The position numbers and the translations under genes are program-made. The notes beneath the pieces are model-generated. The model saw only the letters and a program-made list of their open reading frames with translations. It made no database searches and was not told the DNA's origin. DNA of 64,000 nt from Planctomycetaceae bacterium (GTDB lineage: Bacteria > Planctomycetota > Planctomycetia > Pirellulales > Pirellulaceae): NCBI GenBank assembly GCA_027487485.1, contig JAIYDN010000018.1, positions 186,001-250,000 on the forward strand, in the 5' to 3' direction. Of the stretch, positions 50,591 to 53,109 are shown piece after piece (position 1 is the stretch's first letter; each line of letters opens with the position of its first letter).

Positions 50591-51988
50591 TTGGAAAATC
50601 TCATCGTGGTTCGTCCGGATTGGCTTGTGCCAATGGAACAACCGCCGATTCACCAAGGTTTTCTTGTTCTTCAGCACAATCAGATTCAGTATCTAGGGCA
50701 AGACCTCCCCAGCCAATTCGAGAACGTTCCCCAGATCCGTTTAGTTGACTATGCGATCTTACCTGGGTTGATCAACAGCCATTGCCATCTCGAGTTTAGC
50801 GATCTGACAGTGCCGATTTCGGCTGAAAAATCTTTTGCCAGTTGGATTCAATCCGTGATCCGACATCGCGCGACCGCAGCGCCAGCCCCTTCCGAGCGAA
50901 TGTCCCTGAGACGAGATGCGATGGATCAGGGGATCAAAGAATCGTACGAATGTGGTGTTCGCTGGATTGTGGACATGACCACTTCGCCATGGCAAGCCGA
51001 GTGGATCGAATCATCCGTGATAGCGATCGCACAGGCAACTCGTTCGTCGGCAAAGCATGTGTGGGCACCAACGATTCCGATCTCGGTGCAACCATGCATC
51101 GAACTGGTCGATGTGAACGAAACTCGACTCGAACAAACGCGTTCCTTTGCCGATTCGCTCTACCAGTCCGAGGCCCCAAAAAAAACTAGCTTAAGCCCCT
51201 TGGGCCGATTGGGGCTTGCACCTCACTCCCCTTATACAGCGTCAACCGAGCTTACACGATGGAGTCAACGCAAATCCTTTGAGCAGCATCGACTTGTCGC
51301 AATGCATTTGGCAGAATCCTTGGATGAAATGCAATGGATTGAGAAACAGGAGGGGCCTTTCGAAAGTCTGATGCGGCCGTTTCTCAATGAGAACTACAGG
51401 TCGGGCTTAGGCAGTATTGCGGAACGCTTGCATTGCCTCTCCCAGTCATGGAGGAGCTTGGTCGTTCACGGAAACTACCTGACCGATTCCGAATTAGCCT
51501 ATTTGGGTCTGGCATTTGAAAAGATGGCCATTGTTCACTGCCCTCGTACGCATGCACATTTTGGCCACCGTCGTTCTAGCGACCACGTCGATAGTGATCA
51601 TTCTAGTGGCGGGGGGTATCCTATGCAGGAACGAATTCAGATGGGAGTTCGTCATTTTCTAGGTACCGACTCACGTGCCTCGAATCCCAATCTGAACCTC
51701 TGGGCCGAGGCACAATCGGTTCGGGCAACCCAACGTGGAGTCTGCTCGTTGGATATTCTTCGAATGATCACGACCGATCCGTCCGAATTCCTACAATTGC
51801 CGGGTGGGACTGGACGGATTCAGGTGGGTTCCCAAGCGGGGTTAACGGCTGTCAAACTCAACAAAAACAAGGCTGCCACGATTTACGATGGTTTGCTTTC
51901 GCCAGAAACCACAAGTCTGCCGCTTGAGAAAGTTCTTTTGGGTGAACCAATCACTCCAGCCGCTTCCGAAATTGAGAAGTTGCGATAA
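50591..51988 (+). CDS. Amidohydrolase (cytosine deaminase/TrzN-AtzA/SsnA-like)
   Basis: 465 residues starting at TTG 50591; an ATG 14 codons later would remove conserved N-terminal sequence, so TTG is preferred. The metal and catalytic set is complete: NSHCHLEF (H-x-H), MHLAESLDE (H-x2-E-S), VHCPRTHAHFG and the final Asp in FLGTDSRASN. These enzymes deaminate or dechlorinate heterocyclic substrates such as adenosine, guanine or S-adenosylhomocysteine; substrate unknown. The gene ends 13 bases before the tRNA gene. Confidence 0.88.
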   Translation: MENLIVVRPDWLVPMEQPPIHQGFLVLQHNQIQYLGQDLPSQFENVPQIRLVDYAILPGLINSHCHLEFSDLTVPISAEKSFASWIQSVIRHRATAAPAPSERMSLRRDAMDQGIKESYECGVRWIVDMTTSPWQAEWIESSVIAIAQATRSSAKHVWAPTIPISVQPCIELVDVNETRLEQTRSFADSLYQSEAPKKTSLSPLGRLGLAPHSPYTASTELTRWSQRKSFEQHRLVAMHLAESLDEMQWIEKQEGPFESLMRPFLNENYRSGLGSIAERLHCLSQSWRSLVVHGNYLTDSELAYLGLAFEKMAIVHCPRTHAHFGHRRSSDHVDSDHSSGGGYPMQERIQMGVRHFLGTDSRASNPNLNLWAEAQSVRATQRGVCSLDILRMITTDPSEFLQLPGGTGRIQVGSQAGLTAVKLNKNKAATIYDGLLSPETTSLPLEKVLLGEPITPAASEIEKLR

Positions 51989-52001
51989 ACTAGGGCTCTG
52001 C

Positions 52002-52372
52002 GGGACCGTAGCTCAACGGTTAGAGCAGGGGACTTAAGCGAAGAAAACCTAAGGCAGAACGGTAGAACTGCATTGCTATGGTGACTTCGAGCGGGTTGCA
52101 AGCGATTTTGCTAGTATTGCCAAGGAATTGGTGCTGGCGAGGCTGCTTGTAGAATCTGTCAAATTCGGGGAAGGCTTCGTTTGTTTTGGTTGAATAGAAC
52201 CACAATAAATTGCTAATCCCGAGCCAAGCCGCCTTAGGCGGAAGGTGTAGAGACCAGACGGCAGACACGTAAAGTGAAGGTATGGTCCAGACCACAAACT
52301 CGAAAGAGGCGGCGAAAGCCGTGGTTGGTAAGCATAATCCCTTGGTTGCAGGTTCGAATCCTGCCGGTCCTA
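52002..52372 (+). tRNA. tRNA-Ile(CAU), interrupted by a group I intron in the anticodon loop
   Basis: The 5' exon (52002-52034) gives the acceptor strand GGGACCG, the D arm (GCTC...GAGC) and the anticodon stem GGGGA followed by CT. The 3' exon (52333-52372) gives CATAA, the stem TCCCT, a five-base variable loop, the T arm GCAGG-TTCGAAT-CCTGC and the acceptor strand CGGTCCT with discriminator A (no encoded CCA). Joined, the loop reads CTCATAA, anticodon CAU, and the sequence closely resembles bacterial tRNA-Ile2, whose C34 becomes lysidine. tRNA-Met is less likely given the CTCATAATC context. Exon borders are inferred and could shift by a base or two. The short variable loop excludes tRNA-Leu. 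Confidence 0.85.
52035..52332 (+). ncRNA. Group I intron (tRNA type, IC3-like) within tRNA-Ile(CAU)
   Basis: About 298 bases. Core elements are in order: P (TCAAATTCGGGGAAGG, near 52159-52175), Q (TGCTAATCCCGAGCCAAGCC, 52211-52230), R (GGTGTAGAGACCAGACGGCA, near 52244-52263) and S (GTGAAGGTATGGTCCAG, 52274-52290). The Azoarcus tRNA-Ile intron shows the same P, Q, R and S landmarks. Downstream, ACCAC (52291-52295) pairs with GTGGT (52321-52325) and encloses two GAAA-tetraloop hairpins (CTC-GAAA-GAG and CGGC-GAAA-GCCG). The final base is G. There is no endonuclease gene. The P1/IGS pairing is not clear, so the exact 5' splice site is inferred. Confidence 0.88.
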
Positions 52373-52446
52373 TTTTCTTTTCTTGCATTGCATCTTGAAG
52401 TGCTCGGGTGCAACTTGAGCGAGCCCTTTTCGACCTAATCCTACCC

Positions 52447-53109
52447 ATGACCCACCCCATCGACACCCCTCCGACCCAAGACCATTTGAAGCCCCATGCC
52501 GATTCGATCCAGGGCTTGAAGCGAGTCGGGGCTCAACTGTGGAACCGAGGCTGGTCGCTTGGCACCTCGAGCAACTACAGCGTTGTCGTTGACCGAGCCC
52601 CGTTAACGCTGTTGATCACCGCCAGTGGAAAAGACAAAGGGCATCTGGGAAGTGACGATTTTGTTTTGGTTGACCATTTGGGACAATTAGCGCTTCCAGG
52701 CCAAGCCAAAAGCAGTGCCGAAACGTTGCTTCACTGCACAGCCGCTCAGCATTGCGGGGCGGGAGCCGTACTTCACACTCATAGCGTTTGGGGAACATTG
52801 CTTTCGCAGCATTTCTTCGCCTTGGGCGGAATCCGATTGGAGGGTTTTGAAATGCTCAAAGGTTTGGAGGGGGTGACGACCCATGAGTCTTCCGTTTGGC
52901 TACCCATTTTTGACAACACTCAAGACATTCCAGCCCTGCAACGGCAAGTCGTCGAGTACTTGCAAAAGAATCCGAATGAGAAATGCTGGGGTTATCTTAT
53001 AAGACGTCATGGGCTCTACACCTGGGGCAAAGACTTAGCCGAAGCCACGCGTCATATCGAGGTTATTGAGTTCCTTCTGGAATGTGTCGGGCGGACGCTG
53101 CATCGTTAG
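52447..53109 (+). CDS. mtnB: Class II aldolase family, methylthioribulose-1-phosphate dehydratase-like
   Basis: 220 residues from ATG 52447; GTG 52408 would add 13 residues. Class II aldolase/MtnB features are GWSLGTSSNYSVV (related to the GW-x-x-TSGN-x-S motif), ITASGKDKGHL, SAETLLHCTAAQ (catalytic Glu) and zinc ligands in VLHTHSVWGTLLS with a further His in RRHGLYTWGKDL. It would act in the methionine salvage pathway, dehydrating 5-methylthioribulose-1-phosphate. No other mtn gene is nearby. Confidence 0.85.
   Translation: MTHPIDTPPTQDHLKPHADSIQGLKRVGAQLWNRGWSLGTSSNYSVVVDRAPLTLLITASGKDKGHLGSDDFVLVDHLGQLALPGQAKSSAETLLHCTAAQHCGAGAVLHTHSVWGTLLSQHFFALGGIRLEGFEMLKGLEGVTTHESSVWLPIFDNTQDIPALQRQVVEYLQKNPNEKCWGYLIRRHGLYTWGKDLAEATRHIEVIEFLLECVGRTLHR

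Follow-up and report, generated by a model that had tools for sequence, protein, structure and literature searches.

In the accessible part of a review on the subject, the tRNA introns described are mainly those of cyanobacteria, with few from alpha- and beta-proteobacteria; they usually follow the anticodon, and most of the bacterial and plastid ones are located at 37/38 (PMC4033280). For the tRNA-Ile(CAU) intron of Azoarcus, the exon triplet is given as the CAU anticodon in the available portion of its description (PMC6274277), which places that intron after base 36. A survey with tRNAscan-SE 2.0 reported 36 bacterial genomes whose fMet or Ile2 gene is split by a group I intron, and its accessible text names Acidovorax and Burkholderia Ile2 among such tRNAs (PMC8450103). 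Introns in tRNA-fMet are described for cyanobacteria, including Synechocystis, in the excerpts available from three papers (PMC8450103, PMC1995217, PMC5733544), and the phage introns known at the time of one partly available report were all located in protein genes (PMC3984707). Searches of open-licence papers showed none that deals with a tRNA intron in a planctomycete.

The window analyzed here, a 64,000-nt stretch of DNA from a host that a first-pass annotation of this stretch had correctly noted to be a planctomycete, contains at 52002–52372 a tRNA-Ile2(CAU) gene split by an intron between U33 and C34 (Table 1). When the two exons were joined at 52034/52333, a 73-nt cloverleaf with anticodon CAU was obtained, which ARAGORN called and named tRNA-Met(cat); run without introns over the whole window, the same program reported no tRNA. 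The same letters occur uninterrupted in a genome of the same genus (G006, copy L014), where the intact gene scores 74.2 bits against RF00005. Since the last base of the intron is G, unlike U33, and its first is U, unlike C34, only one junction is compatible with this empty site, and the exon and intron boundaries proposed earlier (52002–52034, 52035–52332 and 52333–52372) were exact to the base. The split gene was assigned to tRNA-Ile2 by exclusion together with exon features that we take to be typical of this tRNA; separate Met (C73) and fMet (C86) tRNA genes are present in the window's genome. The insert matched the group I intron family RF00028 at 52106–52312 with 47.9 bits (E 4.1e-11). This is the match that the first-pass annotation had expected, although it falls short of the gathering score of 50, and for that reason a default Rfam scan over the window gave no entry. 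The match spans positions 1–253 of the 253-position model, with the model's P1 falling downstream of the true one, and it is the sole one in the window's genome at E ≤ 0.001. As the wider scan described below suggests, split fMet/Ile2 genes are overlooked or wrongly named in default tRNA and Rfam annotation. Both GAAA loops (52302–52305 and 52314–52317) and the terminal G noted earlier are present, and the latter, omega G (G52332), is a G in 12/12 aligned introns. A homing gene is absent from the intron, in which the longest stop-free stretch is 99 codons on the minus strand and 46 on the plus strand. Its core may resemble that of Azoarcus (subgroup IC3).

Table 1. Features of the split tRNA-Ile2(CAU) gene, in window positions.
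Feature	Position	Strand	Basis
tRNA-Ile2(CAU) 5' exon, bases 1–33	52002..52034	+	identical to bases 1–33 in intact genus genes
Group I intron, 298 nt, omega G (52332) last	52035..52332	+	RF00028 match and empty sites
P1-loop hairpin (P1 extension), outer stem 52039–52043 with 52085–52089	52039..52089	+	minimum-energy folds, 12/12
CCUAAG, 5' half of putative 11-nt GAAA-receptor-like motif	52048..52053	+	sequence
UAUGG, 3' half of putative receptor-like motif	52077..52081	+	sequence
Internal guide GGGUUG	52093..52098	+	pair probabilities 0.88–0.99; tends to covary with exon base 31
P2 hairpin, outer stem 52098–52104 with 52144–52150	52098..52150	+	fold
P3, 52155–52160 with 52260–52265	52155..52265	+	12/12 paired, 2 both-sided pairs
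P4 (52164–52169 with 52218–52223) and P5 (52173–52175 with 52212–52214)	52164..52223	+	12/12 paired, one-sided changes only
P6, 52224, 52225, 52229 with 52245, 52244, 52241	52224..52245	+	12/12 paired, 1 both-sided pair
P7 guanosine-binding helix, 52252–52256 with 52283–52287	52252..52287	+	12/12 paired, 2 both-sided pairs
P8 hairpin	52266..52276	+	12/12 paired, 2 both-sided pairs
P9 and P9a hairpins, GAAA tetraloop on each	52299..52321	+	12/12 paired, 1 both-sided change each
tRNA-Ile2(CAU) 3' exon, bases 34–73, CAU anticodon first	52333..52372	+	joined-exon cloverleaf

Sixty related genomes were searched, comprising 27 of the window's genus and 33 outside it. Within the genus, the intron was found in 11/27 genomes, the window's included (G000, G005, G008, G011, G014, G016 and G020–G024), and an intact gene in 12/27 (G001, G003, G004, G006, G009, G010, G012, G013, G015 and G017–G019); the other four genus genomes (G002, G007, G025 and G026) gave no match. 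A class II aldolase gene (52447–53109, PF00596) lies downstream of the tRNA gene in the window, and it follows the tRNA in 10/10 other intron-bearing genus loci as well as in the intact G015 and G006, while it was not seen in the flanks of about 1.5 kb at four other intact genus loci (L018–L021). In a rapidly built rpoB tree with 25 genomes of the genus, 22 of them of known state, with G011 and G002 off the tree and SH-aLRT as its one support measure, intron presence required 2 changes compared with a mean of 7.4–7.5 after shuffling (0/500 equally low). One is a gain basal to a clade with support 100, the other a loss in G015, which is placed at 89 within a clade of 98. This host tree, a new element relative to the first-pass annotation, fits one gain and one clean loss, and the intron looks vertically inherited within the genus after that gain, with the loss in G015. 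Outside the genus, one of the 33 genomes (G045) carries an intron at the identical site. In a weakly resolved intron tree (93 rows, 13/90 branches starred), the 8 genus introns included formed one group (58), next to which stood three other planctomycete introns (90). The G045 intron was placed with Roseimaritima, close to Pseudomonadota (86), and is therefore no sister to the genus introns. Another group I intron was observed in a genus genome with intact tRNA-Ile2 (G012; L349, 313–1048), where it lies in a 23S rRNA gene and scores 55.3 bits against RF00028. Matches to RF00028 at E ≤ 1e-4 were obtained in 12/392 sampled genomes of the planctomycete phylum, the window's included (L070–L081); of these loci, four are situated in 23S rRNA genes and seven have a tRNA T-arm after them, some apparently being split after the anticodon.

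It had been proposed that AUA decoding depends on self-splicing if the only tRNA-Ile2 gene is split. The first half of this proposal stood: apart from the split gene, none of the 70 RF00005 candidates examined in the window's genome is an intact Ile2 of the window type, and the search for a second Ile2 gene identified none, two CAU tRNAs of uncertain identity being found in a tRNA array. The second half is weakened for this genome, because the array, 31 tRNAs at the end of contig C1, encodes a tRNA-Ile(UAU) besides the two CAU tRNAs (Met according to ARAGORN), and AUA reading there need not hang on splicing. The array (L053, 8151–11361, in the window's genome G000) is cut by the contig end and has a counterpart in G005 (L269, 990–4428); the two are 78–98% identical in aligned pieces, and the array is patchy in the genus and likely mobile. 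In G005, a single contig, the matches examined show Ile2 to be split and Met and fMet to be whole, and an array on the chromosome includes tRNA-Ile(UAU). When 22 genomes of the genus were searched by pattern, intact Ile2 was detected in 11/11 intact genomes and in 0/11 intron-bearing ones, so no spare copy was seen, and tRNA-Ile(UAU) in 2/11 and 3/11, respectively, with imperfect controls (Met in 10/11 and fMet in 5/11 of the intron-bearing genomes). One may accordingly suppose that the split gene is dispensable, AUA being read by the array tRNA-Ile(UAU), with Ile2 carried along as a passenger or yielding tRNA slowly. The array tRNA encoded both by the window's genome and by G005, together with the UAU matches in 3/11 intron-bearing genomes, speaks for this, and it could relieve selection on splicing in the window's genome. 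We nevertheless regard it as improbable, since 8/11 intron-bearing genomes gave no UAU match (7 informative, as G021 gave no match at all), the exons are conserved and the intron pairs compensated, and a tilS-family gene is kept (183.4 bits in the window's genome). Furthermore, the array tRNA-Ile(UAU) of the window's genome has U rather than A at position 73 by inspection, which makes its charging uncertain. AUA decoding thus likely depends on splicing of the split Ile2 in most intron-bearing genomes, as judged from gene content. A link by which the array tRNA would permit the intron was considered and rejected, the array being patchy and 8/11 intron-bearing genomes being without a UAU match.

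The fold of the intron was examined by aligning 12 introns without constraint and drawing 54 pairs, of which 33 belong to the intron and 21 to the tRNA. Across the 12 homologues, every one of the 648 pair cells is kept, compared with 31–48% paired when partners were slid by 1–3 columns; the window sequence served as the template for the drawing, which favours this share-paired measure and, less so, the both-sided changes. Such both-sided changes were found in 11/54 pairs, 9 of them in the intron, a number reached in 0/500 shuffles, whereas the measure of further pair types did not exceed the shuffles (414/500 equally high). The P3–P8 and P4–P6 domains and the P7 pseudoknot are present, the drawn P3–P9a pairs holding in 12/12 homologues, with both-sided changes in P3, P6, P7, P8, P9 and P9a. 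Taken with the RF00028 E-value, this conservation bears out the assignment as a group I intron in tRNA-Ile(CAU). A decaying pseudogene whose intron no longer splices might account for the sub-threshold Rfam score, but it is very improbable considering that 54/54 pairs hold in 12/12 homologues, both-sided changes included, and that another Ile2 gene was not found in the intron-bearing genomes searched. A tRNA-Leu(UAA) gene having its intron after position 37, as ARAGORN with -i100,500 would have it (tRNA-Leu(taa), 298-base intron), is scarcely conceivable, because 12 intact orthologues contradict it with CAU at the same place, a Leu(taa) gene exists elsewhere in the genome, and by inspection that junction would leave the intron without a terminal G. 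This misreading by the intron mode, seen for window positions 51901–52500, is a likely source of wrong annotations. The group I intron is hence regarded as genuine and, judging from its sequence, most likely working.

The 5' splice site would be defined by a P1 helix that had not been described for this locus. An exon pairing with CCUAAGG near the intron start was rejected as P1, as U33 faced A or the pairing failed in relatives; reading of 61 distinct introns showed GGGUUG, and the guide was therefore placed at this motif further downstream. P1 is short and consists of G30.U52097, A31-U52096, C32-G52095 and U33.G52094, two of them G.U-type pairs, and the U.G at the 5' splice site has a probability of 0.97. 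P10 looks weak in the window, with G52093-C34 as its one pair by inspection. Among the 61 distinct Ile2-type introns, GGGU[UC]G was present in the searched intron start of 45/49 with A31 and 1/12 with G31, GGGC[UCA]G in 10/49 and 7/12, and neither motif in 4/49 and 4/12. In these sequences, the guide thus tends to change together with exon base 31 (Fisher p 2e-4, a rough indication only, given the relatedness of the sequences and the counting of ten introns in both columns). Minimum-energy folds gave P1 together with a long inner hairpin in 12/12 homologues. The pairing of GGGUUG with exon bases 30–33 and this long P1-loop hairpin with a receptor-like motif are the new elements of the intron. 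Its CCUAAG and UAUGG form a putative 11-nt GAAA tetraloop-receptor-like motif, which may bind a GAAA loop. CCUAAG occurs in 9/11 genus introns and CCUAAA in 2/11, and both exact halves, CCUAAG and UAUGG, in 6/11; in two other genus introns, the UAUGG string belongs to the guide region.

What the sequences show are the anatomy of the intron, its empty site and the covariation; the two steps of self-splicing from the tRNA-Ile2(CAU) precursor, lysidine formation at C34 and the cell's need for them are inferred. We hold this reading, together with apparent vertical descent after one gain and with one loss, with high confidence. In the precursor, GGGUUG would pair with exon bases 30–33, setting the U.G at the 5' splice site, and a guanosine held in P7 would attack after U33. 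This U33 would next attack after G52332 and join C34, by which the anticodon loop CU-CAU-AA would be restored. TilS would then convert C34 to lysidine, enabling the tRNA to read AUA as isoleucine. AUA accounts for 56/962 isoleucine codons in 41 long ORFs of the window. If the tRNA is spliced in this manner, each AUA codon would wait on the ribozyme in genomes without the array tRNA, and the genus would offer a natural experiment with split and intact copies of the identical tRNA.

The distribution of the U33/C34 site was examined with a pattern for the 3' exon of a CAU tRNA having G in place of U before the anticodon. This yielded at least 117 stretches in genome_contigs and 39 in viral_contigs, of which 155 loci were scored, one at a contig edge (L117) being unscored. 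A good 5' exon was found in at least 116 of the 155, which look like fMet/Ile2 genes split at U33/C34, span many phyla and include viral contigs; this count comes from the 5'-exon test, which requires U33 and so assumes the 5' junction. The remaining 39/155 failed and were excluded from the counts; several are viral with a common tRNA-like end (...GCGAGCGACG/CATAATCGCC), and others have no 5' exon within reach. Among the matches listed, the genomes contributed at least 56 fMet and at least 43 Ile2-type loci, two of the 43 being genus-mates counted already (L082 and L156), and the viral contigs 17 Ile2-type loci. The latter were observed at L199, L201, L203, L205–L207, L209, L214, L215 and L217, and further at L218, L221, L226, L227, L229, L232 and L235. 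They comprise nine distinct introns, five of which match RF00028, above the cut-off in L217 and L209 and below it in L207, L199 and L206; no match was obtained at E ≤ 0.01 in L201, L205 and L232, nor in a cut-off-level scan of L218. With at least 116 of the 155 scored loci split there in appearance, U33/C34 is a common site, and the earlier view of it as unusual had to be abandoned. The present case is real, yet of a known sort, the same spot being common to many unrelated bacteria. The counts suggest that split fMet/Ile2 genes are much commoner than stated in the accessible part of the review (PMC4033280). As a tentative and rather doubtful extension, the U33/C34 introns of CAU tRNAs may constitute a large family, for the most part uncatalogued, that extends over bacterial phyla and phages, with a guide (GGGUY/GGGCY) tuned to exon base 31. 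In one branch, the P1 loop might serve as a receptor hairpin docking one of the intron's own GAAA loops, tying 5' splice-site choice to folding, and most intron-bearing Pirellula might read all AUA codons via one ribozyme product.

Compared with the described systems, the cyanobacterial fMet introns likewise interrupt a CAU tRNA, at U33/C34 in our pattern scan, although the tRNA is a different one; that of Synechocystis has a homing endonuclease gene according to the available part of its report (PMC1995217), in contrast to the window's intron. The Azoarcus intron shares with that of the window the same tRNA and the small group I type. As the first-pass annotation had claimed, their sites differ: as far as the accessible description goes, the exon triplet of Azoarcus is the anticodon itself and its intron follows base 36 (PMC6274277), whereas the window's lies between 33 and 34, the two being compared by description. 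The Ile2 introns of Acidovorax and Burkholderia, in the available text of their report, share both the tRNA and the intron class and were missed by tRNA finders (PMC8450103). Those of Burkholderiales in the pattern scan are split at U33/C34 as in the window, which differs from them in that its host belongs to another phylum.
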